A stretch of 64,000 bases of DNA from Arcobacter sp. CECT 8983 (GCF_004118855.1 NZ_PDKF01000004.1:707604-771603), one strand, 5' to 3'. Positions 25,462-48,700 are shown, counted from the first letter of the stretch. Program-made: numbers and translations. The notes: generated by a model not told the origin, from the sequence alone.

Positions 25462-25518
25462 ATAAAATCCTATATTTTTTTAAGATTATAGCATAACAGT
25501 CAAATAACTTTTACGAAA

Positions 25519-32823: not shown

Positions 32824-32863
32824 AGCATCTAAGTTTCCTTTAGGGAAACTAGGTTGCTTTTTC
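32824..32863 (+). terminator. Terminator of the fdh operon
   Basis: A roughly 15-bp stem with two mismatches (core AGTTTCC / GGAAACT, 32833-32850, extended by AGCA/TGCT) is followed by TTTTTCTATTT. It starts a few bases after the fdhC stop. Confidence 0.82.
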
Positions 32864-32875
32864 TATTTAATTTAT

Positions 32876-32896
32876 AATATGCAGAATTAGCATATT
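32876..32896. promoter_or_regulatory. Operator-like palindrome, copy A
   Basis: AATATGC-N7-GCATATT overlaps a TATAAT -10-like box at 32873-32878, 123 bp upstream of fdhD. It matches copies B (32984) and C (48476) in the outer 7-bp arms but differs at two inner positions. Confidence 0.65.
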
Positions 32897-32904
32897 AAAT
32901 TTAA

Positions 32905-32959
32905 AAGCAACTCGTTGCTTATTTTAGAATTTGTTTCTTTATCTGGAAATTTCTTCCAG
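32905..32959 (+). other. Two small hairpins in the fdhD leader
   Basis: AAGCAA-CTCG-TTGCTT (32905-32920) is followed by ATTTTA, and CTGGAA-ATTTC-TTCCAG (32943-32959) by TTTT. Both look like weak intrinsic terminators lying between palindromes A and B, so they could attenuate transcription from the promoter at copy A or back up the fdh terminator. Confidence 0.5.
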
Positions 32960-32983
32960 TTTTAAAAGAAATTATAAAATTAA

Positions 32984-33004
32984 AATATGCTAGATTAGCA
33001 TATT
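32984..33004. promoter_or_regulatory. Operator-like palindrome, copy B, at fdhD
   Basis: AATATGCTA-GAT-TAGCATATT is a perfect 9-bp inverted repeat ending 14 bp before the fdhD ATG, next to TATAAAAT. Its arms are identical to copy C upstream of the TonB receptor gene. Confidence 0.75.
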
Positions 33005-33018
33005 AAGAAGAGAAAGAT

Positions 33019-33810
33019 ATGGACAACACAAAATATTTAAAAACAGTAGTAATAGACAAACTTATAGAAAATGAAGCAACTGAAATTGAAGATGTGACAA
33101 TAGAAGAATCACGTCTAAATTTGTATTTAAATGGAGAAAAAACCATATCTATGATGTGTATTCCAAAAGATCAAGATGCCCATGCAATTGGTTTTTTAAT
33201 GAGTGAGAATGTTATCTCAGGAATTGAAGATATTGAAAGCCTTGAAGTAAGTGAAGATGGTTTAAGAGTTGATGTTAAAGCGAAGATTGATGAAAACTCT
33301 TTACAAAATCTTTATAAAGAAAAAACACTTACAAGTGGTTGTGGAGGTGGAGTTACTGGAACTGCCGATGGTAACCTTGAAATTCCTTTTAATCAAACAG
33401 CTTTTAATATCAAGCCTAAAACAATTTTAGATGAGATTAAAATATTTTATAGAGAGAGCGAACTTTATAATTTAACTGGTTGTGTACATAAAGCAATGAT
33501 TTATTTACTTGATGGAACAACAGTTACAGCAGAAGATATTGGAAGACATAATGCAATAGATAAAGCTATTGGTAGATGTAAACTTCAAGGATTAGAAACT
33601 AAAAAATCTGTACTTTTTGTATCTGGAAGATTAAGTTCAGAAATGGTTACAAAAGCAGTTATGCATAGAATCCCAATAATTGTTTCAAGAACAGCTCCTA
33701 CATATTTAGGAGTTCAAACAGCACATAAACATGGAATTACTCTTATTGGTTTTGCAAGAGGTAAGAAAATGAATATCTATACACACTCTGGTAGAGTACT
33801 AGGAGTGTAG
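33019..33810 (+). CDS. fdhD: Formate dehydrogenase accessory sulfurtransferase FdhD
   Basis: FdhD (263 residues) transfers sulfur to the Mo/W-bis-pterin cofactor so that formate dehydrogenase becomes active. Blocks present are DAHAIGFLMSENVI, LTSGCGGGVTGTA (with the conserved Cys), TGCVHKAMI, AEDIGRHNAIDKAIG, SGRLSSEMVTKA and VSRTAPTYLGVQTAHKHGITLIGFARG. It is the first gene of a long cofactor and metal-uptake operon and has palindrome B just before its ribosome-binding site. Confidence 0.96.
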   Translation: MDNTKYLKTVVIDKLIENEATEIEDVTIEESRLNLYLNGEKTISMMCIPKDQDAHAIGFLMSENVISGIEDIESLEVSEDGLRVDVKAKIDENSLQNLYKEKTLTSGCGGGVTGTADGNLEIPFNQTAFNIKPKTILDEIKIFYRESELYNLTGCVHKAMIYLLDGTTVTAEDIGRHNAIDKAIGRCKLQGLETKKSVLFVSGRLSSEMVTKAVMHRIPIIVSRTAPTYLGVQTAHKHGITLIGFARGKKMNIYTHSGRVLGV

Positions 33811-33811
33811 T

Positions 33812-34231
33812 ATGGGTAAACTTCAAAATATAATCAATCTTGATGAAACACAAAAAGAACTTATCTTATCAAATTTAGATGATAATGGAAGACTATCTTG
33901 TCTAAAGGCTTTTAAAGTGGCAAGACTAATTGGGGTAAAACCAATTGAAATGTCAGATGCTTGTAAAAGTATAAATGTAAAGATTACAAATTGTGAACTT
34001 GGAGTTTTTGGAAAAATTAAATTTCAAAATGCAGAGAGTGCAATTTATAGCAAAATTAAACAAAACTTTACACAGGATAGTGATGTTTCTTGTAAAACCT
34101 TATGGTATATAGCGCAAGAAAGTAGTTTAAGAAGAGTGGGCAATACAGTGAAAAACAGTGATGTAGAAGTAACAAATTGTCAATTAGGATGTTTTAGAGA
34201 AAGAAAGGGGCATCGTGAAATCAAAAGTTAA
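33812..34231 (+). CDS. Uncharacterised protein with two internal repeats, fdhD-linked
   Basis: I do not recognise this 139-residue soluble protein. It has an internal duplication: LSCLKAFKVARLIGV...VKITNCELGVFGK (about 30-68) and VSCKTLWYIAQESSL...VEVTNCQLGCFRERKG (about 92-135). Both units end in a [IV]TNCxLGxF motif with a Cys and look like small helix-turn-helix or winged-helix units. It sits 1 bp after fdhD and overlaps the ModE-like gene by 17 bp, so regulation by, or handling of, molybdate/tungstate is a reasonable guess only. Confidence 0.7.
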   Translation: MGKLQNIINLDETQKELILSNLDDNGRLSCLKAFKVARLIGVKPIEMSDACKSINVKITNCELGVFGKIKFQNAESAIYSKIKQNFTQDSDVSCKTLWYIAQESSLRRVGNTVKNSDVEVTNCQLGCFRERKGHREIKS

Positions 34232-34589
34232 AATTTGGATAGAAGACAATGAACATAATCTTATTTTTGGTGGTGGAAAAACTCAGATACTAGAATTAAT
34301 TGATGAAACAGGTTCAATATCTGAAGCCTCAAAAAGAGCAGGAATGAATTATAAAAAAGCTTGGTCACATATAAAAGTTTTACAAGAATATATAGATGAT
34401 GAGCTAGTAATTGTTACAAAAGGAAGAAATTCAGGGGGAACAACTTTAACTCCAAAGGCTAAAGAGTTAGTAAAAAACTTTAAAAAGTTAAATGAAGAGG
34501 TTAGTAAATATTCAGAAGAAAAATTCAAAGAGCTTTTCTTAAAAAAAGAGAACATTATTCAATGTTCAAAAGAGAATGAAGATGTATAA
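34215..34589 (+). CDS. ModE-like winged-helix regulator without molybdate-binding domain
   Basis: The 124-residue protein starts with GTG and matches the N-terminal DNA-binding domain of ModE: FGGGKTQILELIDETGSISEASKRAGMNYKKAWSHIKVLQ, then RNSGGTTLTPKAKELVKNFK. The two TOBE/Mop domains that bind molybdate in classic ModE are missing, so it must sense metal through a partner or by another route. Its gene lies inside the operon headed by palindrome B, so it is the best candidate to bind that palindrome. Confidence 0.88.
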   Translation: MKSKVKIWIEDNEHNLIFGGGKTQILELIDETGSISEASKRAGMNYKKAWSHIKVLQEYIDDELVIVTKGRNSGGTTLTPKAKELVKNFKKLNEEVSKYSEEKFKELFLKKENIIQCSKENEDV

Positions 34590-35553
34590 ATTAAATTTTA
34601 TTCAATATCCAAGCGTAAATAAAATAGAAGTTGATAAAACACTTTCTTTACAAGCTTTAAAAGATAATGATGAAGCACAAGTTGTTATAGAGGATTTTAA
34701 AAAGAGATTTAATTTTAAATCTTTAAACTCATTCTCTTTTTCTGAAGATGGTTTTTTAAGTCTAATGATAAAACTTGGTGGAAAAATTATTGTTTCTAAA
34801 GGTGAAAGTCAAGCAATAGTTGATGCAGCAAAAAAATACAAAGATTTAGGTTTTGATATTGAATTTATTTCATTAAAGAAAAATGGTCAATTAAATTATG
34901 ATGAGATTAAAAATTGTGATTATGCTTTTATCTCTTCATATATCATGGATACTTATGTAAAAGTAGATTTACAAAAAGTAAAAGAGTTATCAGGGGCAAA
35001 AATTATTTCAAATGTAAGTGCAACTTTAGATGTAAGTTTTTGTGATATTGCAATATTTGATGCATATAAACTTACTGGTTTTTCTTTTTCTTCAATTCTT
35101 TTACATAATGAAGTTTTAGAAGAACAATATTTAGCACTTATTGATATTACTTCTATTGTAACTATTTTAAAAGCAGTTGAAAACTTTACTATCAAAACTA
35201 ATTATAAAAAAGATTTCCAAATAGCTTTAGAAGAAGAGTTAAACGAAGATATTTACTTCTTTGTTGATTCGAATGAAACTTTAGAATATACACTTCATTT
35301 TGGTTTAAAAGGTATCAAAGCTAGGGAAATAATTCGTTCTTTAGCTTTAGGTGGAATTTTAGTTACAAATGGAGAAGGGTGTTCTTTAGGTTTATCAAAG
35401 CCATCAAGAGTTTTAAGTGAAATGGGCTACGAAGAGCTTGAAACTAGATGGGCTTTAAGCTTAAGTTTCAAAGATGAATTAACAAGTGATGAAATTAATT
35501 TAATAGTAAAAGCAATAGGCAAAAAATATAGACAAATAAAAAGGTTAGGCTAA
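34576..35553 (+). CDS. NifS-like PLP protein, divergent cysteine desulfurase
   Basis: This 325-residue protein looks like a shortened class-V aminotransferase. AYKLTGF fits the PLP-lysine region, and VTNGEGCSLGLSKPSRVLSEMGYEELETRW matches the C-terminal Cys loop and PSHVLxAMG block of NifS/IscS. The N-terminal half is poorly conserved. FdhD takes sulfur from a cysteine desulfurase, so this may be a dedicated sulfur (or selenium) donor for formate dehydrogenase. It overlaps the ModE-like gene by 14 bp and moeA by 1 bp. Confidence 0.7.
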   Translation: MKMYKLNFIQYPSVNKIEVDKTLSLQALKDNDEAQVVIEDFKKRFNFKSLNSFSFSEDGFLSLMIKLGGKIIVSKGESQAIVDAAKKYKDLGFDIEFISLKKNGQLNYDEIKNCDYAFISSYIMDTYVKVDLQKVKELSGAKIISNVSATLDVSFCDIAIFDAYKLTGFSFSSILLHNEVLEEQYLALIDITSIVTILKAVENFTIKTNYKKDFQIALEEELNEDIYFFVDSNETLEYTLHFGLKGIKAREIIRSLALGGILVTNGEGCSLGLSKPSRVLSEMGYEELETRWALSLSFKDELTSDEINLIVKAIGKKYRQIKRLG

Positions 35554-36785
35554 TGAAGAAAACATTTTTAGATTTTAATATAGCAATCCAAAAAGCATTA
35601 GAAAATGCAACAGTAACAAAATTTACTGAAGTAGTTAGTATTGATGAAGCATTAGGAAGAGTTCTAGCTAAGGATATAGCTTGTGTTAAAAATCTTCCAT
35701 CTTTTAATAACTCAGCAATGGATGGTTTTGCAATAAAAGCAAGTGATGCAGGAAAATCATTAAAAGTAAAAAAAGTGATATTTGCAGGACAATCAGTTGA
35801 TGCTTGTTTACAAGAGGGTGAGTGCTATAAGATTATGACAGGAGCAAAGGTTCCAAGTGATGTAGATACAATTATTCCTATTGAAGATGTAGTATCTTTT
35901 GAAGAAAATATAGTAACTATTAAAGAAGAAGTAAAAAAAGGTTCTTCTTTAAGACTTAAAGGTGAAGAAAAAGCTTTAGGTGAACTACTTTTTGAAAAAG
36001 CTGACGTTATAACTTCAAGTAAAGTTGCAGTGCTAGCTTCTCAAGGAATTGTTAAAGTTGAAGTATATAAAAAACTATCAATTGCAGTTGTTTCAACAGG
36101 AAATGAATTAAAAGAGCCTTGGGAAGAAGCAAAGGAAGATGAAATTTATAACTGTAACTCTTATGCTCTTATTTCTTTTTTACAAGAAAAAGGTTTCAAA
36201 GCAGTATATTCAGGTTTAGTTCCTGATAATTTAGAAGAGTCAATTGAGTTTGTAAAAGATTTATCAACTTATGATGTTGTTATCACAACTGGTGGTATTT
36301 CTATGGGTGATGCTGATTTTATAGGAAAAGCCTTTTTAGAAAATGAATTAGAAACAATTTTTCATGGAGTAAATATAAAACCAGGTCGTCCAATTATGAT
36401 GGGTAAAATGAAAAATACTTTTGTAATGTGTCTTCCAGGAAACCCTCTTACAGCATTGGTAAATATGCATCTTTTTGCTATTCCAGTTTTAAATAAAATT
36501 CAAGGTAGTAGCTTAATTTATCATGATGTGACAATAGCTAAAAATCAAGAAGAGTTTAAAACAAAAGCAGGACGAGTAAATGTAGTACTAGGAACTTGTG
36601 AAAAAGGAGAATATAAAGTAACTAAAAAAAATAAATATGGCTCAGGAATGATTACTGTACTTGATGAGAGTAATTGTATTCTTGTAACAGACGAAAGTAC
36701 GGTACTACAAAGTGTAGGTGATAGTGTAAAAGTAATCAAGTTCAATTGTTCATACTTAAAAGAACAAACAAATATATTTAATTAA
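35553..36785 (+). CDS. moeA: Molybdopterin molybdenumtransferase MoeA
   Basis: The 410-residue enzyme inserts molybdate (or tungstate) into adenylated molybdopterin. Blocks present are LPSFNNSAMDGFAIKA, KIMTGAKVPSDVDTIIPIEDV, VSTGNEL, TTGGISMGDADF, KPGRPIMMG and CLPGNPLTALV. It is between the NifS-like gene (1-bp overlap) and the Wtp-type transporter, and supplies the cofactor to FdhA. A tungsten-selective MoeA cannot be told from sequence alone. Confidence 0.95.
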   Translation: MKKTFLDFNIAIQKALENATVTKFTEVVSIDEALGRVLAKDIACVKNLPSFNNSAMDGFAIKASDAGKSLKVKKVIFAGQSVDACLQEGECYKIMTGAKVPSDVDTIIPIEDVVSFEENIVTIKEEVKKGSSLRLKGEEKALGELLFEKADVITSSKVAVLASQGIVKVEVYKKLSIAVVSTGNELKEPWEEAKEDEIYNCNSYALISFLQEKGFKAVYSGLVPDNLEESIEFVKDLSTYDVVITTGGISMGDADFIGKAFLENELETIFHGVNIKPGRPIMMGKMKNTFVMCLPGNPLTALVNMHLFAIPVLNKIQGSSLIYHDVTIAKNQEEFKTKAGRVNVVLGTCEKGEYKVTKKNKYGSGMITVLDESNCILVTDESTVLQSVGDSVKVIKFNCSYLKEQTNIFN

Positions 36786-36800
36786 AAAAGAAGGATTTAA

Positions 36801-37757
36801 ATGAAGAAAACATTATTAAGTTTAGGATTAAGTGCAGTATTAGCATCAGCATTAGTTGCAAAAGAGAAAATTGTAGTATTTCACGCTGGAAGTTTAGCAG
36901 TTCCATTTTCTGAAATTGAAAAAGAGTTTGAAGCAAAATATCCAGAATATGATGTTCAAAGAGAAGCAAGTGGAAGTAGAGCAGCAGCTAGAAAAATATC
37001 AGAAATTGGTAGAGCAGCAGATGTTATGGCAAGTGCAGACTATAAGGTAATTGATAATTTATTAGTTCCTAATAATGCAAAATTTAATGCACAGTTTGCA
37101 ACAAATGAGATGGCAATTGCTTTTACTCCAAGTTCAAAATATGCAGATGAAATTAATTCAAATAATTGGCCAGAAATCTTTTTAAGAGATGGTGTTAAAG
37201 TAGGTCATTCAAACCCAAATATGGACCCTTGTGGATATAGAAGTATTTTAGTTACAAAATTAGCAGAAGAGCATTATAAAATTCCAGGTTTTTATGAAAA
37301 ACTATTTGGATATGGACAATCTTATAAAGTAGGTGAAGAAGATAAAAATAAAGTTATCGTAAGACCAAAAGAGACTGACCTTTTAGGTTTAATTGAAGCT
37401 AATGCATATGACTATTTATATATTTATAAATCAGTTGCCAAACAACATGGATTAAAATATATTACTTTACCTAAAGAAGTTTCTTTAAAAGATAATGAAA
37501 ATGCAAAATTCTATAAAACTGCAAAATTTGATATTGATGGTAAAAAACCAGGAACATTTATTACTAAAACTGGTGGAGCAATGGTTTATGGAATCACAGT
37601 AGCACAAAATAAAAAATCTCCTGCAAATAAAGAAGGAGCTGTTAAGTTTGTAAATTTTGTTTTATCTGAAAAAGGTCAAGAGATTATGAAGAAAAATGGG
37701 CAAGGAGTAATTTCTCCTGCAAAAATAACTGGTGATGCTTCAATTATAGGAAAGTAA
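36801..37757 (+). CDS. wtpA: Tungstate/molybdate-binding protein, WtpA type
   Basis: The 318-residue periplasmic protein has a signal peptide (MKKTLLSLGLSAVLASALVA) and the WtpA signatures HAGSLAVPF, ASGSRAAARKI, ASADY, ATNEMAIAF and SNPNMDPCGYRS, which bind a tetrahedral/octahedral oxyanion. WtpA proteins bind tungstate tightly and also molybdate. Its stop overlaps the ATPase gene by 1 bp. Its signal peptide is almost identical to that of the unrelated TupA at 39621. Confidence 0.9.
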   Translation: MKKTLLSLGLSAVLASALVAKEKIVVFHAGSLAVPFSEIEKEFEAKYPEYDVQREASGSRAAARKISEIGRAADVMASADYKVIDNLLVPNNAKFNAQFATNEMAIAFTPSSKYADEINSNNWPEIFLRDGVKVGHSNPNMDPCGYRSILVTKLAEEHYKIPGFYEKLFGYGQSYKVGEEDKNKVIVRPKETDLLGLIEANAYDYLYIYKSVAKQHGLKYITLPKEVSLKDNENAKFYKTAKFDIDGKKPGTFITKTGGAMVYGITVAQNKKSPANKEGAVKFVNFVLSEKGQEIMKKNGQGVISPAKITGDASIIGK

Positions 37758-38743
37758 TGAGCTATTTACAGTTAGATAATTTATCAAGCACAATAGATAA
37801 TTTTGTGCTTGATAATGTGAATTTAAATATTGAAGAGAATGAATATTTTGTACTTTTAGGACAAAGTGGAAGTGGGAAAACAAGACTTCTAGAAACTATT
37901 GCTGGATTAAATGATAGTACTGGAAAGATAATATATAAAGATAAAGATATTTCAGAACTACATCCAGAGCAAAGGGAAATAGGTTTTGTGTATCAAGAGT
38001 TTGCACTTTTCCCTAATTTAAATGTAGAAAAAAATATTAAATTTTCATCTAAATATAAAAAGGTAGATAACTCAAAAGAGTTATTTGATGATTTAGTAGA
38101 TTTTTTAAAACTTGGTAACTTATTAAAAAGAGATATTGAAAATTTAAGTGGAGGAGAAAAACAAAGAGTGGCAATAGCAAGAGCCTTGTTTTCAAGACCT
38201 AAAATTTTACTTTTGGATGAGCCTTTAAGTGCTATTGATCCAACTTTTAGAAACTCTATTATGAAAAGTTTAAAAGATATTCATAGAAGGTATGATTTAA
38301 CAACTATTCATGTAACTCATAACTTTAGAGAGGCTTCTTATTTAGCTGATAAAATAGCAATTATTATGAATGGAGAAATCCAACAAGTAGGTAAAAGTGA
38401 AGATGTATTAAATCATCCTGCCAATATTGATGTAGCAAAGTTTTTAGGGTTTAAAAATATATTTCCTTCTTCTTTATTAGGCTTTTCTTCCTCATCAAAA
38501 TTTTTCTCTGTTGATCCAAATATGATACATGTTTCTAAGAAAGAAAAACCAAATTGTGATTACACTTTTATAGGTACTTTAGAGGATTGTATGGGTGTTG
38601 TTGATCACTATAAAGTTTTTGTAAATGTTGAAAATCATCAATTTTTTATAAAAATATTAAAAAGAGAATATGAAGGTTGTTACTCAAATGGTGGAAATAG
38701 AGTATTTATCGGTTTTGATAAAAAAGATATAGGGTTTATTTAA
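37757..38743 (+). CDS. Tungstate/molybdate ABC transporter ATPase
   Basis: The 328-residue ATPase has Walker A GQSGSGKT, Q-loop VYQEFALFP, signature NLSGGEKQR, Walker B ILLLDEP and switch HVTHN, followed by a C-terminal extension (about 240-328) of TOBE-like size, as in ModC/WtpC. It lies between the binding protein and the permease with 1-bp overlaps on both sides. Confidence 0.9.
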   Translation: MSYLQLDNLSSTIDNFVLDNVNLNIEENEYFVLLGQSGSGKTRLLETIAGLNDSTGKIIYKDKDISELHPEQREIGFVYQEFALFPNLNVEKNIKFSSKYKKVDNSKELFDDLVDFLKLGNLLKRDIENLSGGEKQRVAIARALFSRPKILLLDEPLSAIDPTFRNSIMKSLKDIHRRYDLTTIHVTHNFREASYLADKIAIIMNGEIQQVGKSEDVLNHPANIDVAKFLGFKNIFPSSLLGFSSSSKFFSVDPNMIHVSKKEKPNCDYTFIGTLEDCMGVVDHYKVFVNVENHQFFIKILKREYEGCYSNGGNRVFIGFDKKDIGFI

Positions 38744-39513
38744 TGCAAAAGAAATCATTTATAGTTTTATTAATTGCCTTGGCTTTTATTATCGTTTTTT
38801 TCTTAAGTGTACCAATTTTAAAAATGTTTGTAGGAGTTGGAAGCGATAAACTACTTGAAACAATAAAAGACGGTGAGGTTTTAGCTTCTATTTGGCTTAC
38901 AATGAAAGTATCAGCTTGGGCAATGATTTTTGTTTTAATAACAGGACTTCCTTTAGCTTATATTATTGCAAGATATAACTTTCCTGGAAGAAGTTTAATT
39001 GAATCAATTATTGATATACCAATTATGATTCCTCATACAGCAGCAGGTATTGCTCTTCTTACAACTTTTGGAGATACTTTTTTAGGGGACTTCTTTAAGT
39101 TTTTTGGAATTGAGTTTGTAGGAACAGAATATGGAATTATGATTGCTATGATGTTTTTATCTGCTCCTTTTTTAATTAATAGTGCAAAAGATGGTTTTAG
39201 AAAAGTAGATGTAAAACTTGAAAAAGTAGCAAGAACTTTAGGTGCTAGTCCTATTTCTGTATTTTTTAGAATCACTATTCCCAATGCTAAAAAAGACATT
39301 ATTAATGGAGCATTGATGATGTGGAGTAGAGGACTTGGAGAATTTGGTGCAGTAGTAATCTTAGTTTATCATCCAATGACTACACCAGTTTTGATTTTTG
39401 ATAGATTTAATAGTTATGGATTAAGTTTCTCTGCACCAGTAGCAGCAGTTATTATAGCCTTTTCTGTTGTTGTATTTTTAGCAGTTAGGTTTGTAACTTC
39501 AAGGCTAAAATAA
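38743..39513 (+). CDS. Tungstate/molybdate ABC transporter permease
   Basis: The 256-residue permease (ModB/WtpB type) has five to six membrane helices and the coupling-loop motif ARTLGASPISVFFRITIPNAKKDIINGALMMWSRGLGEFGA. It completes a binding protein-ATPase-permease transporter in the order A-C-B. Confidence 0.9.
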   Translation: MQKKSFIVLLIALAFIIVFFLSVPILKMFVGVGSDKLLETIKDGEVLASIWLTMKVSAWAMIFVLITGLPLAYIIARYNFPGRSLIESIIDIPIMIPHTAAGIALLTTFGDTFLGDFFKFFGIEFVGTEYGIMIAMMFLSAPFLINSAKDGFRKVDVKLEKVARTLGASPISVFFRITIPNAKKDIINGALMMWSRGLGEFGAVVILVYHPMTTPVLIFDRFNSYGLSFSAPVAAVIIAFSVVVFLAVRFVTSRLK

Positions 39514-39571
39514 ATTTAATGAAGGAGAGGTAAATAAGGAAAGAAAAAAATTGTTAGTAGTAGGATTGTTG

Positions 39572-39588
39572 TCACTTCAGTTAAGTGA
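39572..39588. promoter_or_regulatory. Inverted repeat upstream of tupA
   Basis: TCACTT-CAGTT-AAGTGA lies in the 107-bp gap between the permease gene and tupA. It may be an operator or a weak hairpin. It does not resemble the palindromes at fdhD. Confidence 0.4.
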
Positions 39589-39620
39589 TTAAGTATAAAT
39601 AATTATAAAAAGGAAAAAAT

Positions 39621-40436
39621 ATGAAAAAAACATTATTAACTTTAGGTTTATCGGCAATATTAGCATCATCACTTATGGCAAAAGATGCTTTAATGATGGC
39701 TACAACAACAAGTACTGATAATACAGGATTATTAGACTACTTAGCTCCAAAGTTTGAAAAAGATACAGGTGTTACTTTAAAGTGGGTTGCAACAGGAACT
39801 GGAAAAGCTTTAAAAATGGGTGGAAATTGTGATGTAGATATTTTATTTGTACACGCTCCTGCTTCTGAGAAAAAGTTTATTGCAACTGGATATGGTGTTG
39901 ATAGACATCAAGTTATGTATAATGATTTTATTGTAATTGGACCTAAAAAAGATCCAGCTTCTGTATCTGGAATGACTCCAAGTGAAGCTTTACAAACAAT
40001 CAAAGATAAAAACGCTAAGTTTTTCTCAAGAGGTGACAATTCTGGAACAAATAAAAAAGAACTTTCTTTATGGAATAATGCAAAAGTTGATACAAAAGAG
40101 GCTTCTTCTTGGTATGTTCAAACAGGTCAAGGTATGTTAAGAACTATTAATATGGCTGCTGAAAAAAATGGTTATACAATGACTGATAGAGGTACTTGGA
40201 TTAAATATATGTCTCAAAAAGGTGATGATAACACTATGAAAGTAGTAGTTGAAGGAGATAAATCATTATTTAATCAATATTCTGTTGTATCAATTAACAA
40301 AGAAAAATGTTCAAATGTAAAACCAGAATTAGCTAAAAAATTCACTAACTGGGTTGTAAGTCCTGAAACTCAAAAAACAATTGCTGACTTTAGATTATTA
40401 GGTCAAGCACTATTTATTCCTAATGCAGATAAATAA
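39621..40436 (+). CDS. tupA: Tungstate-binding protein TupA
   Basis: The 271-residue periplasmic protein has a signal peptide (MKKTLLTLGLSAILASSLMA) and the TupA hallmarks TTTSTDNTGLLDYLAPKFE, GTGKALKMGGNCDVDILFVHA, YNDFIVIGP, SRGDNSGTNKKE and the C-terminal NWVVSPETQKTIADFR. TupA is highly tungstate-selective in Campylobacter and Eubacterium. It starts a tupABC cluster directly after the Wtp-type transporter, so this organism has two adjacent oxyanion importers. Confidence 0.94.
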   Translation: MKKTLLTLGLSAILASSLMAKDALMMATTTSTDNTGLLDYLAPKFEKDTGVTLKWVATGTGKALKMGGNCDVDILFVHAPASEKKFIATGYGVDRHQVMYNDFIVIGPKKDPASVSGMTPSEALQTIKDKNAKFFSRGDNSGTNKKELSLWNNAKVDTKEASSWYVQTGQGMLRTINMAAEKNGYTMTDRGTWIKYMSQKGDDNTMKVVVEGDKSLFNQYSVVSINKEKCSNVKPELAKKFTNWVVSPETQKTIADFRLLGQALFIPNADK

Positions 40437-40448
40437 GGGTTTTTATAG

Positions 40449-41144
40449 ATGAATCTTTTTACGGATGGCTTTCAAGAAGCAATACAATTATTAACATCAG
40501 GTAATGAATCTGTTTATTCAGCAATTACAACTACAATAACTGTATCTTCTTGGTCTTTATTGATTAGTTTAATACTAGGTCTTCCACTAGGCTTCTTACT
40601 AGGGTATTATAATTTCCCTGGTAAGGCCATAGTAAGAACTATTGTCGATACTCTTTTAGCCCTTCCAACAGTTGTAATAGGTTTAATAGCATATACAATG
40701 TTATCTCAAGTAGGACCACTTGGTAGTTTAGGTTTACTCTTTTCTCAAGAAGCAATAATAATGGGGCAAATAGTATTAGGATTACCTATCATTATTGCTT
40801 TAACTGCAATACAAGTTGAAGCTGTAGATAAAAGACTTTATGTTTCTTTAAAAGGTTTAGGAGCAAGTTCTAAACAGATTTTAATAGCTACTTTAATTGA
40901 AGCAAGATTTGGACTTATGACAGCAGCAATGACTGCTTATGGAAGAATTATTACAGAAATTGGTATTTCTATGATGGTTGGTGGAAATATTAAATATCAC
41001 ACTAGAACTGTTACAACTGCAATTGCATTAGAAACAGGAAAAGGTGAGTTTGTTACTGGAATCGCACTTGGATTAGTTTTATTTGTAGTTGCTTTATCTG
41101 TAAATATTGCTTTATCTATGTTAAAAAGGAAGTGGAACCAATGA
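40449..41144 (+). CDS. tupB: Tungstate ABC transporter permease TupB
   Basis: The 231-residue membrane protein has five helices and the TupB-type coupling region SLKGLGASSKQILIATLIEARFGLMTAAMTAYGRIITEIGISMMVGGN. It follows tupA by 12 bp and overlaps tupC by 4 bp. Confidence 0.92.
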   Translation: MNLFTDGFQEAIQLLTSGNESVYSAITTTITVSSWSLLISLILGLPLGFLLGYYNFPGKAIVRTIVDTLLALPTVVIGLIAYTMLSQVGPLGSLGLLFSQEAIIMGQIVLGLPIIIALTAIQVEAVDKRLYVSLKGLGASSKQILIATLIEARFGLMTAAMTAYGRIITEIGISMMVGGNIKYHTRTVTTAIALETGKGEFVTGIALGLVLFVVALSVNIALSMLKRKWNQ

Positions 41145-42163
41145 GTAATATTTATGAATTAAAAAATATAGAACAATATTATGATTCAAAAAGAGTATTA
41201 AATATAGAAAAACTATCTTTACAGAGAAGTCAAATCATAGGTTTTTTTGGACCAAATGGAAGTGGTAAATCAACTCTTTTTTCTCTTTTATCCTTTATAA
41301 ATAAACAAACAAAAGGAGAAATAATCTTTAATGGAATAGATAATAAACATTTACCACAAGAGTTAAAACAATCAGTAGTAATGGTTCCTCAAAACCCTTA
41401 TTTACTAAAAAGAACAGTATTTGAAAATATATCATATGGATTAAAACTAAGAAAAAACATACATAATCTTGAACAAAAAGTACAAGAAGCATTGTCATTA
41501 GTTGGATTAGATAAAACTTTTGCAAATAGAAAATGGAGTCAACTCTCTGGAGGTGAAGCTCAAAGGGTAGCATTAGCAGCTAGACTTATATTGAAACCAA
41601 AAGTTTTAATCTTAGATGAACCTACAACAGGAGTTGATACAAACTCTGCACAACTTATAAAAGAAGCTATTTTAAGTACAAAACAAAAGTGGAACACAAC
41701 AATACTTATTTCAAGTCATGATCACAATTGGCTTAATCATATTTGTGATAGAAAAGTAGCTCTTTTTCAAGGGCATTTAGTAGATAGTGGAAATCTTAAT
41801 TTACTTTTTGCACCTTGGGAAAAAGCAGAAGATGATAAGTTAATTAAATTTTTCCCCGATGGACAAGCATTAAAAATAGAAAATAGTGAATCTAAAAAAA
41901 GAGATTCAGTTGTTATGATAGAGTCTAGTGCAATTACTATTTATAGAATAGATTGTAAGGATTTAATTAAAGAAAATACACTAATAGGTGTTATCAACTC
42001 AATATCACATCAAAATTCAAATGAACTCTTACTCGTAGAGTTTTCAATTGGAGGAGTATCATTTAATTGTAAAGTAGATAAAAAGACAATGCAAGAACAA
42101 AGATTTTTTCCCTCAGATAGAGTTTATGTAAATATTGATACAAACCAAGTTTGTTGGATATAG
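41141..42163 (+). CDS. tupC: Tungstate ABC transporter ATPase TupC
   Basis: The 340-residue ATPase has Walker A GPNGSGKS, Q-loop VPQNPYLLK, signature LSGGEAQR, Walker B VLILDEP and switch SSHDHNW. A C-terminal extension (about 255-340) with VVMIESSAITIYRIDC and FSIGGVSFNCKVDKKT resembles a TOBE-like regulatory fold. ATG 41141 with AAGGAAG upstream was chosen over a GTG nine bases earlier. Confidence 0.9.
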   Translation: MSNIYELKNIEQYYDSKRVLNIEKLSLQRSQIIGFFGPNGSGKSTLFSLLSFINKQTKGEIIFNGIDNKHLPQELKQSVVMVPQNPYLLKRTVFENISYGLKLRKNIHNLEQKVQEALSLVGLDKTFANRKWSQLSGGEAQRVALAARLILKPKVLILDEPTTGVDTNSAQLIKEAILSTKQKWNTTILISSHDHNWLNHICDRKVALFQGHLVDSGNLNLLFAPWEKAEDDKLIKFFPDGQALKIENSESKKRDSVVMIESSAITIYRIDCKDLIKENTLIGVINSISHQNSNELLLVEFSIGGVSFNCKVDKKTMQEQRFFPSDRVYVNIDTNQVCWI

Positions 42164-42175
42164 GTAAATTAAATT

Positions 42176-42847
42176 ATGCAAAAAAAGCTATATATTTTTC
42201 TTCTCTTTTCTTTTGTTGCAATATTTCATTTTTTGCTTCTTAATTATGAGTTTAATAAAGAAATTGAATTAAAAAGAAAAAATATTAGCCATGATATTAC
42301 AGATATAAATCTTGTAAGACTTGAAAAAAAGCAAGAAATTATATCAAAAGCTGAACAAGTTAGAAAAAAGCAAATTGAAGAACAAAAACAAAATGAAGTA
42401 GCAGAAAAAGTAATTAAAAACAAAAAAAAGATTATAAAGAAAAAAGGCTTTAAAAAAGAAAAAATAGTAAAAAAACAAATAGAAAAAAATAGTAAAGATA
42501 AAATTGACCAAAAAGAGTTAATAAAAAAAGAAAAAGAAAATAGTTTAGAAAAAGAGCATATAAAGCTTTATATAGGATATGTTAGGAGAGTAATAGAAAA
42601 CAATAAATTTTATCCTAATATTGCAAAGGCAATGAATTTACAAGGTGAGTGCTTAGTAAGATTAAAAATATTAAATGATGGAAAAATTCAAGATATAGAG
42701 TTTGAGAAGAAAACAAGATATAAAGTTTTAAATAGTTCCACTTTGAAGATTTTGAAAAATATAGAAAAATTTAAAGCTTTTCCAAAAGAGATTTCAAGAG
42801 AATATTTAACTTTACGACTTCCTATTAAATATAGATTAAAAGGTTAA
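42176..42847 (+). CDS. tonB: TonB-family energy transducer
   Basis: The 223-residue protein has one N-terminal membrane helix (about 5-23), a Lys/Glu-rich spacer (about 45-125) in place of the common Pro-rich one, and a C-terminal TonB fold (YIGYVRRVIENNKFYPNIAKAMNLQGECLVRLKILNDGKI). It carries energy from ExbBD to outer-membrane receptors. It is 12 bp after tupC and before a FecCD-type transporter, and a TonB-dependent receptor lies at 46497-48434. No exbB/exbD is in the window. Confidence 0.88.
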   Translation: MQKKLYIFLLFSFVAIFHFLLLNYEFNKEIELKRKNISHDITDINLVRLEKKQEIISKAEQVRKKQIEEQKQNEVAEKVIKNKKKIIKKKGFKKEKIVKKQIEKNSKDKIDQKELIKKEKENSLEKEHIKLYIGYVRRVIENNKFYPNIAKAMNLQGECLVRLKILNDGKIQDIEFEKKTRYKVLNSSTLKILKNIEKFKAFPKEISREYLTLRLPIKYRLKG

Positions 42848-42849
42848 GT

Positions 42850-43857
42850 TTGAAGAATATTTATATAAAACTATTTTTATTGCTTTTAATAACTGTTTTC
42901 TTATCATTAAGTTTAGGTAAATATCCTATAAGTTTTGAGCAAATTATAAACTACATACAAGAGTTGTTATTTTCAAATGAAATAGATGAAAACTTGCAGA
43001 TGATAGATAATATTATTGTTGAAATAAGACTTCCTAGAGTTATTGCTGCAATATTAATTGGAGCAGCTTATGCTGTATCAGGAGCTTCTTTTCAAGCAAT
43101 GTTTATCAATCCTTTAGTTTCACCTGGAATATTAGGAGTTTTATCTGGTTCTGCTTTTGGTGCAGCTTTAGCAATTGCATTTTTTGATAGTTGGTTTCTT
43201 ACTCAATTATTCTCTTTTTCTTTTGGTGTATTAGCAGTAATCTTTGCTATTTTTATAACAATGATTTATCAAAATAGGGCAAATAATAGTTTGATATTAA
43301 TACTAGGAGGAATAATTAGTGGTTCTACCTTTTCTACCTTGTTATCAATTGTAAAATTTACAGCTGATCCTTATGAAAAGCTTCCTTCTATAGTTTACTG
43401 GTTGATGGGAAGTCTTTCATATATTGAACTAAATCAAATTGTTTTGGTATCTATTCCAATGCTTCTTGGAGTTTTAACTCTTATAGGAGTTTCAAAATAT
43501 TTAAACATTTTGAGCTTCTCTGAAGAAGAAGCAAAAAGTATGGGAGTAAATACAAAACTAATTAGAACTATAGTTATTATAGTTGCTACATTTATTAGTG
43601 CGATAAGTGTTTGTTTAGCTGGGATGATAGGCTGGATTGGTCTTATTATCCCTCACTTCGCAAGATTACTTGTTGGAGCAAATAATCAAGTTTTATTACC
43701 TACTTGTGCTTTATTAGGAGCGATATTTTTACTTATAGTAGATAACTTTTCAAGAATGCTTTTTGAGTTTGAAGTTCCTATTGGAATATTAACTTCAATA
43801 ATTGGAATACCAATATTTATTTTTGTGTTAAAAAGTTCAAAAAAGGCTTTACAATGA
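42850..43857 (+). CDS. FecCD-family ABC permease
   Basis: The 335-residue permease (TTG start, two bases after tonB) has about ten helices and FecCD/BtuC signatures: EIRLPRVIAAILIGAAYAVSGASFQAMFINPLVSPGILG, a cytoplasmic loop FSEEEAKSMGVN and GMIGWIGLIIPHFARLLVGANNQVLLP. The family imports iron siderophores, haem and vitamin B12; MolB of Haemophilus in the same family imports molybdate/tungstate. Its position after tup and moeA genes favours the latter. Confidence 0.9.
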   Translation: MKNIYIKLFLLLLITVFLSLSLGKYPISFEQIINYIQELLFSNEIDENLQMIDNIIVEIRLPRVIAAILIGAAYAVSGASFQAMFINPLVSPGILGVLSGSAFGAALAIAFFDSWFLTQLFSFSFGVLAVIFAIFITMIYQNRANNSLILILGGIISGSTFSTLLSIVKFTADPYEKLPSIVYWLMGSLSYIELNQIVLVSIPMLLGVLTLIGVSKYLNILSFSEEEAKSMGVNTKLIRTIVIIVATFISAISVCLAGMIGWIGLIIPHFARLLVGANNQVLLPTCALLGAIFLLIVDNFSRMLFEFEVPIGILTSIIGIPIFIFVLKSSKKALQ

Positions 43858-44627
43858 TTGAAGTTAAAAATTTAAGCTTCAAATATGCAGATGATTTAAT
43901 CTTAGATAATATTAACCTTTCTATTCAAAGAGGAGATGTCCTTGCAGTTTTAGGAGAAAATGGAAGTGGTAAAAGTACTCTTTTAAAACTTATTCTATCA
44001 TTTTTAGAACCTTTAAAAGGAGAAGTTTTAATAGATAATAAAAATGTTAATTCTTACGAGAAAAAAGCCTTAGCTAAAAAAATAGCCTATGTTCCACAAA
44101 GTAGTACTTTACCTTTTTCTTATACTGTTTTGGAAGTGGTTTTAATGGCAAGAATCTCTTATCAATCAATTTTTTCAACATATTCAAATAAGGATAAAGA
44201 AATTGCAATTGAAGCTTTAAAACACTTAGAAATAGAAAGCCTAAAAGATAGGATTTTTAGTGATTTAAGTGGAGGACAAAAACAGTTAGTTTTAATAGCA
44301 AGAGCTTTAGCCCAAAAAGCAGAAATTCTTATAATGGATGAGCCAAGTTCTAGTTTAGATTATTCAAATGAGTTGATGCTTTTAAATCAAATAAAGAAAC
44401 TTGCAAAAAAAGGCTTTACTGTTATTCAAACAACACATAATCCAAATCATGCTTTTTATATTTCATCAAAAACATTACTTATAAAAGATAAAAAAGTTTT
44501 TGCATTTGGTAAAAGTACTGAGATTCTAACTCAAAACAATATAAATAGTTTATATGATATAAAAGTAGAACTTTACGAAAGCAGCGAAAAAATAAAGTTT
44601 TGTATTCCAAAGTTTAATAGGTATTGA
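43854..44627 (+). CDS. FecE-type ABC transporter ATPase
   Basis: The 257-residue ATPase has Walker A GENGSGKS, Q-loop VPQSSTLPFSYTVLEVVLMAR, signature DLSGGQKQLVLIARALAQ and Walker B ILIMDEPSSSLD. It overlaps the FecCD permease gene by 4 bp and precedes the binding-protein gene by one base, forming a complete importer. Confidence 0.92.
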   Translation: MIEVKNLSFKYADDLILDNINLSIQRGDVLAVLGENGSGKSTLLKLILSFLEPLKGEVLIDNKNVNSYEKKALAKKIAYVPQSSTLPFSYTVLEVVLMARISYQSIFSTYSNKDKEIAIEALKHLEIESLKDRIFSDLSGGQKQLVLIARALAQKAEILIMDEPSSSLDYSNELMLLNQIKKLAKKGFTVIQTTHNPNHAFYISSKTLLIKDKKVFAFGKSTEILTQNNINSLYDIKVELYESSEKIKFCIPKFNRY

Positions 44628-44628
44628 T

Positions 44629-45516
44629 ATGAAGATAGTTTTTATTTTAATTTTTTATAGTATTTATAGTTTTGCAAATGTTATAAATTGTAATGAATAT
44701 GAAGGTAATGCTAAAAATATAATAGGACAATCTCCTCCTGTAAATATATTTTTACACTCTTTATATGAAACAAAATTTCCTAATAAAATATCTAAAAAAG
44801 ATAAGAGATTTTCAAAAATTCCTAGTATTGAAGTATTAGCCAAAAATGGTGTTGAACTTGTACTTTTATATAATTCACAAAGCAATTTTGAGAACTTAGC
44901 AAAAAAGTTAAAAAAAGTTAATATTGACGCATGTTATTTAAAACTTCATTCTATATATGATTATATTGATGCTTATAAAACAGTAGGAAAAATAATTAAC
45001 AAACAAAAAAGAGCTCAAGAAGTTTCTTCATATATAAAAAAAGAGTTAAAGTTTTTAAAAAATATCACAAAGAATATAAAAGATAAAGTAACTATTTATT
45101 ATGCAAAAGGAGATAATGGTTTAGTAAGTAGTTGTGAAAAATCAGCTCATACTGAAGTTTTTGATTTAATAAAAGCAAAAAATGTAGTTGAGTGTGGCAC
45201 TTTAGAAAAAAGAAGAGTAACTCTAAATTTAGAAAATTTATTACTTTTAAATCCTGAGATTATTGTAACCGATAATAAAAGGTTTTATAATAAAGTCTTT
45301 AAAGACAGTAAATATAGTTTCTTACAAGCAGTAAAAAACAAAAGAGTTTATTTAGTTCCTAAAAAACCATTAAACTATATAGATAGTCCTCCAAGCTTTT
45401 TTAAGATTTTAGGAAGTTATTGGGTAGGTAAAAAAGTTTATAAAAAAGAGTTTGAAGAAGTGAACTTTAAAGACAAAAAGACAGAGTTCGAAAGAATATT
45501 ATTAAATAAGGAATAG
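44629..45516 (+). CDS. Periplasmic BtuF/MolA-type binding protein
   Basis: The 295-residue protein has a signal peptide (ends near YSFAN) and a type-III periplasmic-binding fold linked by a long helix: FSKIPSIEVLAKNGVELVLLYN, VGKIINKQKRAQEVSSYIKK, NLENLLLLNPEIIVTDN, KNKRVYLVPKKPLNYIDSPPSF. It has two Cys residues in the first 100 and a pair (SSCEK, VECGT) later. Ligand not deducible; the context suggests an oxyanion or its chelate. Confidence 0.83.
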   Translation: MKIVFILIFYSIYSFANVINCNEYEGNAKNIIGQSPPVNIFLHSLYETKFPNKISKKDKRFSKIPSIEVLAKNGVELVLLYNSQSNFENLAKKLKKVNIDACYLKLHSIYDYIDAYKTVGKIINKQKRAQEVSSYIKKELKFLKNITKNIKDKVTIYYAKGDNGLVSSCEKSAHTEVFDLIKAKNVVECGTLEKRRVTLNLENLLLLNPEIIVTDNKRFYNKVFKDSKYSFLQAVKNKRVYLVPKKPLNYIDSPPSFFKILGSYWVGKKVYKKEFEEVNFKDKKTEFERILLNKE

Positions 45517-45519
45517 ATT

Positions 45520-46254
45520 TTGGAAAGTTTTAAAGCATATATTTGTATTGATGATACAGATGAAATAGGTTATGAAAAATCAACTGGTGAAATTTCAGAA
45601 GAGATAAAACAATATATTGAAAACAACTTTGATATTGCTTGTTCTTTAGTTACTCGACATCAACTTTTTTTACATGAAGATATTCCTTACACTTCTCATA
45701 ATAGTTCTATGTGTTTTACTTGTAATTTAAACCAAGCTCAAAAAGAGCAAATCAAAGAGTTTATAATCTCATATTTAAATAAACATAGTGCTCCTAGTTC
45801 TCAGCCTGGGCTTTGTATTGGTTTTGAAAAAGATATTTCAAATAAAAAAGAGCTTATTGAATTTGGTTTAGATGCTAAAAAAAAGGTCTTAACAAAAGAT
45901 GATGCTTATAAAATGGCCACAAAGCAAGGCTTAGATTTGAGTGAACACAAGAATGAAGGGCAAGGAGTAGTTGGAGCTTTAGCAGGTGTTGCCCTTAGAC
46001 TTTATGGCTTTGATGGAAGAGTAAAAGGAAAGTTTGACGTAAAAAAGGAGTCTATGAGTGTTGAAGAGTTATTGAAATTTGATTTTATAGATGAAGTTAG
46101 GTTTAAAAATAATGACTTAGTTTCAGAAGATACTATTATAAAAACAACACAAGCTTTAAAAACTGTTTTTTTAGACCATAAATCAATTCTTTTAGTTCAA
46201 GAGTGTGAAGATGGATATGAGGTTATAAGAAAAGAGAATTTAAAAAGTTATTAA
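45520..46254 (+). CDS. TiaS-like DDTD-motif protein
   Basis: This 244-residue soluble protein starts with TTG behind AAGGA. The opening AYICIDDTDEIGYEKSTGEISEEI resembles the DDTD nucleotide-binding start of TiaS, the archaeal tRNA-Ile2 agmatinylcytidine synthetase, and GQGVVGALAGVALRLYGFDG resembles its Gly-rich block. The RNA-binding and zinc-ribbon parts of TiaS are absent. It ends a transporter operon 3 bp after the binding protein. A role in ligand modification, such as phosphate transfer to a chelator, is only a guess. Confidence 0.65.
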   Translation: MESFKAYICIDDTDEIGYEKSTGEISEEIKQYIENNFDIACSLVTRHQLFLHEDIPYTSHNSSMCFTCNLNQAQKEQIKEFIISYLNKHSAPSSQPGLCIGFEKDISNKKELIEFGLDAKKKVLTKDDAYKMATKQGLDLSEHKNEGQGVVGALAGVALRLYGFDGRVKGKFDVKKESMSVEELLKFDFIDEVRFKNNDLVSEDTIIKTTQALKTVFLDHKSILLVQECEDGYEVIRKENLKSY

Positions 46255-46263
46255 AGGGTATTA

Positions 46264-46470
46264 ATGTTTGAATATATAAATAATAAAAAAATATTTAAAT
46301 ATGGGAAAGAAGGATATAAAGAGGCAATCATACAAGCAATGGATTGTAAAAGTTTTGTTTTGGATAAAGATGAAGATGAACTTATTACTTCAATAGATAA
46401 AAACTCTTGCTATAACTGTTTATATAGAAGATGGACCCAAAAAAGCTTCATGTGTATGGTGTCTAAATAA
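46264..46470 (+). CDS. Small Cys-rich protein (CxxC...C), metal-uptake operon
   Basis: I do not recognise this 68-residue protein. The N-terminal half is charged; the C-terminal end has NSCYNCLYRRWTQKSFMCMVSK, a CxxC plus a third Cys 11 residues later, and one further Cys near residue 28, which suggests zinc or cluster binding. It lies 9 bp after the TiaS-like gene, starts at ATG and ends at a strong terminator, so it is a genuine last gene of the operon rather than a chance ORF. Confidence 0.65.
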   Translation: MFEYINNKKIFKYGKEGYKEAIIQAMDCKSFVLDKDEDELITSIDKNSCYNCLYRRWTQKSFMCMVSK

Positions 46471-46494
46471 ATAGGAGATTATTCTCCTATTTAT
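46467..46494. terminator. Bidirectional terminator
   Basis: ATAAATAGGAGA and TCTCCTATTTAT form a perfect 12-bp stem around TTAT, between the stop codons of the small Cys protein and the convergent TonB receptor gene. Confidence 0.87.
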
Positions 46495-46496
46495 CT

Positions 46497-48434
46497 TTAA
46501 AAGCTATACTTTAAAGAAGCATAAAATTCTCTGCCTTTTTCTGGATAACCTAAATCATATTCATAGTTTTTGTCAAATAAATTTTCAACGCCAACTTTAA
46601 AGCTTAATGCTTTTGAATAAATATATTTTGCATTTAGATTTGTTAATGAAATATTTGATGCTTTAAGATAATCACCTGATACTTCATTTTCTAAATAGAA
46701 ATCTTTTTTATAAGTATAGTTTGCTTCAAGAATTACACTTTTTACAGGTTTAATATTTGCATAAACATAAAATTGATGTTTAGGAAGTCTTTCAACTTGA
46801 TCTTCTGAATCTTTTTTTATGTTTGTATATGTATAGTTTAAACCTGCTCCAAATAATGAAGTTTGATAATTAATAGATGATTCAATTCCTTTATATCTTT
46901 CATCTGCACTATTTTGTTCTTGTCTCTTTCCATTATCTAAAGTTTTATTTATAATTGCATCTTTAACTTTTGTATAGAATAGGGCATTATTGAATGTAAA
47001 GTTATCTACTTTTATTTTATGAGCTACTTCATAGTGTGTTGCAATCTCTGGATCTAACTCTGGATTTGGTATAGCTTTACCTTTTTTGTCAGAGTATCTT
47101 TCTTTCATAGTAGGTAAGTGACTTTTTCTAGCTGCAGTAAAACTAACTTGTTGATCTTTAGTAATATCATAAAAGAAACCAATTTGAGGATTAAATGCAC
47201 TATTTGATTTTTTTTCAACGGCAGTTGCAGTAGTATCAACTTTTGAAGCTCTTGTATAATCATAACTTGCAGAAGTAATAACTTTGAACTTTTCTGTTGC
47301 AAAATAGATATCTTCTAAAGCAATAGAGTAAATATTATCAGCTAAGTCTTCTTCTGTATTTGTAATCTTACCTTTTTTGTTAATATTTTCTTCTGTTCCT
47401 TTATGAGAATCTTTTTTATAAGAAAATGAAGTCTTTAAGATATGATTTTCTAGAAGTCCAAAGTTTGAGTATTCTAAAGATGTTCCTTTAGTATTATCAT
47501 CTGAGTCATAAAAACCTTTTGAAGTAGTGTATGTTTCATCTTGAAAATAGTCTGTTTTATATTTATAGTCATTTCTAAAAAGTTTAAATTTAACAGAACT
47601 ATCAGAAAAAATTTTATTTGCTATAAAATACATTGTTCTTGTGTCCCAAACAGGCCATTTCCAGTACTTCTCATTACTTATTGTTGGATCGATTGTAGAA
47701 GGTTGACCTTTTTGTGAATCCATGTAAGAATAACCAAATACATATTCACTTGTATCATCAGGTATAAATCCAACTTTTGCACTTATTGCTTTTTGTTTAG
47801 AATCACTATTTTCTCTTTTAGAGTCAGATAAATTAGCATCATTTGATAATGTCCAGTGACTTCTATCTTCAATTGTTCCATTTATTTGATAGTAATATTT
47901 TTCTTTTTTTGAACCAAGGTATATATTATACATATGACTTGATTTTTCCCAATCACTATCTGCATTTATTTGAGATGTAAAACTACCTTCAAACTCTTTT
48001 GTTGGTTTTTTAGAAACCAAGTTTATTACTCCACCTAAAGTGTTTGAGCCATATAATGATGAACTAAAACCTTTTGCTACATCAATTGAGTCTAGTTGAG
48101 TAGTTAAAATTCTAGAATAATCAAATTGTGCATCATAAGGAACATAAATTGGAATACCATCTAAAAACATTCCTATTCTATTTGAGTCAAATCCTCTAAT
48201 GTTTACAGACTTCTCAACTCTTCCTCCTCTGTTTACTAAAGTTATACCTGTAGTTTTGTCTAAAACTTCAGTAATATCTTTAGATGCAGTATTTTCTAAA
48301 GTTTGTGATGAAATTTTGTTTGTATCATATTTCACACCATTGTTATCTTGTATTGAAATTTCTCCAAGTGTAAAGCTACTTTGTGCTAACAAAACACTTG
48401 AAGCAATACATGAAAGTAAAATTATCTTTTTCAT
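46497..48434 (-). CDS. TonB-dependent outer-membrane receptor, putative Mo/W or metallophore uptake
   Basis: The 645-residue receptor has a signal peptide (ends near LLAQS), a plug domain (SSQTLENTASKDITEVLDKTTGITLVNRGG; VNIRGFDSNRIGMFLDGIPIYV; YGSNTLGGVINLVSKKP) and a beta-barrel ending in the outer-membrane signature with C-terminal Phe (GREFYASLKYSF). It is convergent with the tonB/FecCD operon. Its promoter carries palindrome C, identical in its arms to palindrome B at fdhD, and no Fur-like box. Co-regulation with Mo/W genes suggests a molybdate, tungstate or chelate ligand; the classic alternative is an iron siderophore. Confidence 0.85.
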   Translation of the reverse strand: MKKIILLSCIASSVLLAQSSFTLGEISIQDNNGVKYDTNKISSQTLENTASKDITEVLDKTTGITLVNRGGRVEKSVNIRGFDSNRIGMFLDGIPIYVPYDAQFDYSRILTTQLDSIDVAKGFSSSLYGSNTLGGVINLVSKKPTKEFEGSFTSQINADSDWEKSSHMYNIYLGSKKEKYYYQINGTIEDRSHWTLSNDANLSDSKRENSDSKQKAISAKVGFIPDDTSEYVFGYSYMDSQKGQPSTIDPTISNEKYWKWPVWDTRTMYFIANKIFSDSSVKFKLFRNDYKYKTDYFQDETYTTSKGFYDSDDNTKGTSLEYSNFGLLENHILKTSFSYKKDSHKGTEENINKKGKITNTEEDLADNIYSIALEDIYFATEKFKVITSASYDYTRASKVDTTATAVEKKSNSAFNPQIGFFYDITKDQQVSFTAARKSHLPTMKERYSDKKGKAIPNPELDPEIATHYEVAHKIKVDNFTFNNALFYTKVKDAIINKTLDNGKRQEQNSADERYKGIESSINYQTSLFGAGLNYTYTNIKKDSEDQVERLPKHQFYVYANIKPVKSVILEANYTYKKDFYLENEVSGDYLKASNISLTNLNAKYIYSKALSFKVGVENLFDKNYEYDLGYPEKGREFYASLKYSF

Positions 48435-48475
48435 TTTCTCCCTTTTAATAATTGGTAAAATACTTTTTACTATAA

Positions 48476-48496
48476 AATATGCTAAAATAGCATATT
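48476..48496. promoter_or_regulatory. Operator-like palindrome, copy C, at TonB receptor
   Basis: AATATGCTA-AAA-TAGCATATT is a perfect 9-bp inverted repeat centred 52 bp upstream of the receptor start. On the minus strand it abuts a TTATAGT -10-like sequence. Arms and spacing equal copy B at fdhD. Confidence 0.75.
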
Positions 48497-48700
48497 AAAA
48501 AATATAGTCCAATTTTGTGTAGTAAATTGACTATTTAGTAAATTTTTTTTGGTAAAAAAGATTTTACTTTAAAAAGTTTTATAAATACTTAATAAACTAA
48601 AATTTAAGTTATATTTTAGTTTGAATAGTAAAATTGACTATTTTATTTTTAAAAAAAAGTTAAAAAAATTTAAGATAATATAAATGAGTTATAAAGATAA

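Follow-up and report, generated by a model that had tools for sequence, protein, structure and literature searches.

We analysed a window of 64,000 nucleotides (the whole stretch, NZ_PDKF01000004.1:707604-771603) from Arcobacter sp. CECT 8983, in which a palindromic box occurs three times, twice in front of fdhD, the first gene of a run of genes for molybdenum and tungsten (Mo/W) supply, and once in front of a distant gene for a TonB-dependent receptor (TBDT1). A gene for a short ModE-type protein without Mop domains lies in the run. From comparative genomics it is very probable that the box, AATATGC-N7-GCATATT, is the operator to which this protein would bind at two transcription units, that of the receptor gene included. 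The features that carry this reading are the following.

32832..32850, plus strand: terminator-like hairpin (intrinsic type) between the fdhC / fdhABC genes and boxes 1 and 2
32876..32896, no strand assigned: ModE-type box 1 (AATATGCAGAATTAGCATATT), overlapping TATAAT at 32873-32878
32984..33004, no strand assigned: ModE-type box 2 (AATATGCTAGATTAGCATATT), ending 14 bp before fdhD, a placement kept before fdhD in many genomes
33019..33810, plus strand: fdhD, formate dehydrogenase accessory protein, first gene of the unit (Pfam FdhD-NarQ, 8.6e-79)
34215..34589, plus strand: short Mop-less ModE, proposed regulator of the boxes (TIGR00637, profile matches, co-occurrence)
46497..48434, minus strand: TonB-dependent receptor TBDT1 (family and solved-structure matches)
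48476..48496, no strand assigned: ModE-type box 3 (AATATGCTAAAATAGCATATT), 41 bp before the receptor gene, inside the spacer of the best promoter-like match

Exact 9-bp arms, AATATGCTA and TAGCATATT, were found at 32984-33004 and 48476-48496; two inner mismatches set the copy at 32876-32896 apart from them. An earlier note had read these positions, the identical arms and the overlap of the third copy with TATAAT correctly, as well as the 14 bp from box 2 to the fdhD start codon (ATG at 33019), but its 52 bp from box 3 to the receptor was wrong, the ATG of this minus-strand gene (48434) lying 41 bp away. The window contains three matches with up to three mismatches, compared with a mean of 0.25 in shuffled sequences, and none of 100 shuffles reached three. 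In the nearly complete 2.74-Mb genome, these three were the only sites with up to two mismatches. A weight matrix trained on intergenic exact matches in loci of other genomes gave the three boxes 26-29 bits and the next best site in the window -4, a gap exaggerated by the fact that all training arms were exact. As the hairpin at 32832-32850 separates fdhC from the boxes, boxes 1 and 2 appear to head a new transcription unit starting with fdhD.

We scanned 104 Arcobacteraceae genomes and found that the conserved motif reads AATATGC-N7-GCATATT, its centre being rich in A/T. Thus the outer part of the 21-bp palindrome described earlier is conserved, whereas its inner TA/TA is variable. The family contains 95 exact sites in 48 genomes, and a reversed control pattern gave none; the spacers vary between sites and the arms are kept. 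Of 90 distinct sites, 81 lie inside or within 700 bp of an fdh, tup, wtp, FecCD or receptor gene: 34 before fdhD, 26 before fdhA operons, six before a TorD-like chaperone gene, five at the csd start beside modE, four before a receptor gene, two before FecCD, one each before wtpA and tupA, and two inside fdhA-like genes. This is the distribution of a Mo/W regulon, with sites before transport, cofactor and molybdo- or tungstoenzyme genes, and not the scatter over unrelated promoters that the earlier note had named as evidence against itself. Conservation upstream of orthologues was likewise found, before fdhD in tens of genomes and before the receptor in all four genomes whose orthologue is linked to a short-ModE cluster. 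Among the targets in Sulfurospirillaceae and Campylobacter are genes for aldehyde ferredoxin oxidoreductase, a Mo-hydroxylase and a TorD-like protein as well as fdhA and wtpA, and tupA was also among the targets in other genomes. Aldehyde ferredoxin oxidoreductases are a tungsten-enzyme family.

The product of the gene at 34215 (124 aa) matched TIGR00637 (NCBIfam ModE_repress; 3.7e-20, 71.8 bits, under the 98.5 cut-off), and its best solved relatives by profile were 2ijl and Escherichia coli ModE (1b9m/1o7l). The ModE-type winged helix-turn-helix DNA-binding domain is present, and no Mop domain was matched in Pfam and NCBIfam profile searches. The protein would presumably bind the box as a symmetric winged-helix dimer. 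Among 396 Campylobacterales genomes, 82 have both the box and a short or fused ModE, 15 the box only, 44 the ModE only and 255 neither (odds ratio 32). The association was seen inside Arcobacteraceae (27/2/3/25, p about 1e-10) and outside it (55/13/41/230, p about 1e-24), in counts that treat genomes as independent, which related genomes are not. Several ModE-positive genomes without an exact site have a box with one or two mismatches at the same place before fdhD. Genomes without short ModE usually lack the motif, in support of the earlier proposal that the 34215 product controls Mo/W genes together with the receptor.

The box and short ModE also occur together in the sulfate-reducing Desulfobulbales Desulforhopalus, Desulfopila and Desulfofustis, where exact boxes lie immediately past modE or in front of genes for formate dehydrogenase (chance expectation 2e-5 to 1.3e-4 per locus). 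In two of the Desulfobulbales genomes (55-58% GC), the roughly 100 bp beyond the short-ModE match contain an exact box, which precedes either a Sec-type fdhA or a gene for an aldehyde dehydrogenase; by chance, 2e-5 to 4e-5 such boxes would be expected per locus. Further exact sites are at fdhA and at a molybdopterin-binding-like gene. The three have no fdhD beside modE and no detectable homologue of the protein encoded at 33812, which lies between fdhD and modE in our window. What these settings share, besides formate-dehydrogenase-type genes, is the short ModE, which is therefore favoured as the owner of the box, and by comparative evidence this is the strongest single test of that assignment. 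By the same evidence, the palindrome is an operator, as predicted here, common to Campylobacterota and some Desulfobulbales.

Other ModE-type proteins were also considered. The genome encodes a full-length Mop-bearing ModE beside modABC, and its modABC-modE locus has no box. We rejected full-length ModE as the owner, similar proteins occurring in many family members that have neither the box nor a short ModE. A further short ModE-like protein, also Mop-less, is encoded at 55213-55560 (plus strand); it is about 37% identical to the 34215 product and was found in few related genomes (G063, G066).

At the receptor gene, the box takes up the stretch between the two elements of a promoter-like match (-35 TTAATA at 48498, -10 TATAGT ending at 48469); promoter-consensus matches were no more frequent than in shuffles and were used for position only. 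In front of fdhD, wtpA and tupA, the gap between the end of the box and the start codon is about 7-17 bp, or box and codon overlap. Repression is suggested by the positions in this window: box 1 lies over TATAAT, box 2 ends 14 bp short of the fdhD start, and box 3 lies between -35 and -10. We also observed a second palindrome, GTAAAA-N4-TTTTAC (up to one mismatch), which is enriched in the window (10 copies against 1.8 expected; 0/100 shuffles). Copies lie at 48455-48470, 48552-48567, 25499-25514, 25596-25611, 55154-55169 and 18399-18414; the fdh chaperone operon and the second short ModE paralogue are among the genes that it precedes. As a site for full-length ModE, in the form GTAAA-N6-TTTAC, it was rejected, with no copy at the modABC-modE loci examined.

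TBDT1 has the TonB-dependent receptor plug and 22-strand barrel family match. It matched TIGR01785 (6e-46) and TIGR01783 (3e-45) over nearly the full length, both below cut-offs, and CirA and BtuB among solved structures. Besides G000, the exact box stands upstream of its orthologues in G077 and G078 (89-90%) and G092 (52%), with different spacers, and two further FecCD/FecE/binding-protein/receptor operons start with a box (G092 contig 23 and G278). The FecCD permease in the window has MolB (HI1471, 2nq2) as its nearest solved structure (239 bits versus 149 for BtuC). The binding protein matches MolA (HI1472, 3psa), though other structures match better, and the curated models are of B12 or iron types, all far under cut-off. 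In five Arcobacteraceae genomes without short ModE (L273 at 5774-15042, L274, L275, L279 and L280), full-length modE-modA-modB-modC are followed by a related receptor gene in the same orientation; four of the five also have genes for a binding protein and FecCD-FecE after modE-modABC, likewise on that strand. A Mo/W role for TBDT1 is likely on these comparisons, and the shared box and gene neighbourhoods suggest that it would carry a Mo/W species, as free oxyanion or chelate. To our knowledge, no TonB-dependent receptor for molybdate or tungstate has been established, and literature searches showed no clear report of one.

The remaining genes between fdhD and the receptor are as follows.

33812..34231, plus strand: protein with two tandem CxLGxF repeats and four invariant cysteines, candidate sensor (fused to ModE in other families)
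34576..35553, plus strand: cysteine-desulfurase-like protein (Pfam/NCBIfam profile matches)
35553..36785, plus strand: moeA-like molybdopterin molybdotransferase (named from sequence and context; kept in the cluster)
36801..39513, plus strand: wtpA-wtpC-wtpB tungstate/molybdate ABC transporter (WtpA above cut-off; WtpC match)
39621..42163, plus strand: tupABC tungstate ABC transporter (TupA 5.6e-105, below cut-off; TupC match)
42176..42847, plus strand: TonB (Pfam TonB_C)
42850..45516, plus strand: FecCD permease, ATPase and Peripla_BP_2 binding protein, MolBCA-like (MolB 2nq2, 239 bits; MolA 3psa)
45520..46254, plus strand: TiaS/methanogenesis-marker-11-like protein (accompanies receptor/FecCDE clusters elsewhere, L275 and L284)

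The protein encoded at 33812 had no Pfam match. Its predicted fold is mainly helical (predicted local distance difference test score, pLDDT, 76); Foldseek gave no match at E <= 0.001, and VIA-align gave only three-helix matches with Z about 5. It is separate from ModE in Arcobacteraceae and is an N-terminal fusion to ModE in Campylobacter, Sulfurospirillaceae and others. Because it adjoins modE here and is fused to ModE in other families, we regard it as a candidate sensor for the Mop-less ModE. As a DNA binder it is disfavoured, since no homologue was detected in the Desulfobulbales that have the box and a short ModE. A paralogue lies at G000:C8:167140-167514. Upstream of the boxes, the plus-strand FdhA gene (28423-31245) has an in-frame TGA at 28981-28983; readthrough gives a 940-aa formate dehydrogenase alpha subunit, which is probably a selenoprotein. 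A selA-like gene (15690-17039) and a selD-like gene (17224-18201) lie near it.

We propose that the boxes control two units. Unit 1, of roughly 13 kb, would run from fdhD through the 33812 gene, modE, the cysteine-desulfurase-like gene, moeA, wtpABC, tupABC, tonB and the FecCD/FecE/binding-protein genes to the gene at 45520, and since it contains modE, autoregulation would follow. Unit 2 would be the convergent receptor gene (46497-48434). When Mo/W is sufficient, the regulator would sit on the boxes, at the -10 region (32876), in the leader by the ribosome site (32984) and in the -35/-10 spacer (48476), most likely causing repression; when Mo/W is scarce, both units would be on together. Uptake would then use the receptor and TonB at the outer membrane; at the inner membrane it would use WtpABC, TupABC and the MolB-like FecCD system. 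The box, its gene targets and its co-occurrence with short ModE come directly from comparative genomics; from these we infer the binding, the Mo/W signal and the repression. More tentatively, and with our doubts slightly ahead, we suggest that a Mop-less ModE lineage, paired or fused with the four-cysteine CxLGxF sensor, runs a complete outer-to-inner-membrane Mo/W import route including active receptor uptake of the oxyanion or chelate, and that operator and regulator moved together across phyla.

Several observations weigh against parts of this proposal. There are not enough TATAAT placements around boxes to establish repression, and the second palindrome flanks the ModE box at the TBDT1 promoter (also in G077, G078 and G092). 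Some ModE-positive lineages (the C. jejuni-like genus g42 and family f14) have no exact box, so the operator would drift or differ there. The receptor family extends beyond this regulon, since genomes that have neither short ModE nor box also encode homologues, of 38-46% identity, and in some genomes the homologue is tied neither to the box nor to modE-modABC; the FecCD family is also close to cobalamin and siderophore permeases. The loss of formate dehydrogenase activity in a Campylobacter jejuni modE mutant (PMC11237541) would also fit activation of fdh genes. The same short ModE might, when loaded with Mo/W, activate at the fdh genes and repress at uptake genes only. The restoration of the activity by complementation in that work and the boxes before fdhA and fdhD operons are consistent with this, but boxes so close to the start codons of fdhD, wtpA and tupA are where activators rarely sit, and with fdhD and all Mo/W uptake genes in one run here, opposite control would require internal promoters; we consider it rather unlikely.

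That the box belongs to another formate dehydrogenase or Mo/W regulator, the 33812 protein itself or an unlinked factor, merely co-occurring with fdhD-33812-modE, gains something from the near-constant company of these three genes in Campylobacterota, where co-occurrence alone cannot separate them. Against it stand the Desulfobulbales, with box and short ModE but no detectable 33812 homologue and no fdhD beside modE, and the many box-less genomes with full-length ModE, which make it very improbable. A chance or functionless repeat-element match, which A/T-rich sequence and only three copies might suggest, is practically negligible given 95 real sites against none for the control, nearly all at Mo/W or fdh genes, with arms kept across varying spacers. 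The identity of the receptor is less secure. TBDT1 might be an iron-siderophore or cobalamin receptor by chance under Mo/W control, or an importer of a catechol chelate, the metal of which might be iron: family models place it among haem, siderophore and B12 receptors, FecCD permeases of this group are widespread and occur in box-less genomes too, and a siderophore-type receptor gene and an esterase-like gene lie upstream on the same strand. The box kept before its orthologues, the related receptors after modABC or beside modE, tup or fdh genes, and MolB as the nearest solved permease speak for a Mo/W substrate instead, so that we hold this alternative unlikely, while giving it real weight.

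These results offer a concrete operator for the atypical ModE of Campylobacterota, which has no Mop domain. By its targets, this ModE would govern tungsten and molybdenum supply to formate dehydrogenase in environmental species as well as in relatives associated with the gut, and the specific receptor and FecCD-type importer become candidates for active outer-membrane molybdate/tungstate uptake. Since Desulfobulbales have both the operator and the regulator, it becomes possible to define the DNA specificity of a branch of ModE proteins. Our literature search found no paper giving AATATGC-N7-GCATATT; it did not reach the 2009 paper on C. jejuni ModE, where a prior description is possible.

Among known systems, the E. 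coli-type ModE regulon shares the homologous winged helix, the Mo transport, cofactor and molybdoenzyme targets and an inverted-repeat operator, but the regulator here has no Mop domains, the operator differs in sequence and spacing from ATCGnTATATA-N6-TATATAnCGAT (PMC545781), and the regulon centres on formate dehydrogenase, the wtp and tup tungstate transporters and a TonB-dependent receptor. The single-domain ModE of Desulfovibrio likewise has the DNA-binding domain without Mop and lies near molybdate transport genes; its operator, CGGTCACG-N14-CGTGACCG (PMC545781), is different in sequence and spacing, and the integrase-Mop fusion of the Desulfovibrio clusters is not part of the cluster here. 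Closer is C. jejuni ModE (Cj1507c), of an orthologous branch adjoining formate dehydrogenase genes, which is required for formate dehydrogenase activity (PMC11237541) and, according to Taveirne et al. (2009) as cited there, is a single ModE-like protein in control of separate transporters for Mo and W. The C. jejuni-like genome L226 has a fused CxLGxF-ModE, whereas in Arcobacteraceae the two domains are separate genes, and in the C. jejuni-like Campylobacter group the exact box is absent and no receptor link was found. The Haemophilus influenzae molybdate/tungstate importer MolBC-A (HI1470-1472) resembles the putative importer here in a FecCD permease closest to MolB among solved structures and a binding protein related to MolA, but here the importer is joined with TonB and a TonB-dependent receptor under a ModE box. 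The system is thus almost certainly a ModE-type regulon by function and DNA-binding domain, without the Mop sensor and the classical operator, and with its own operator and a TonB-dependent branch.

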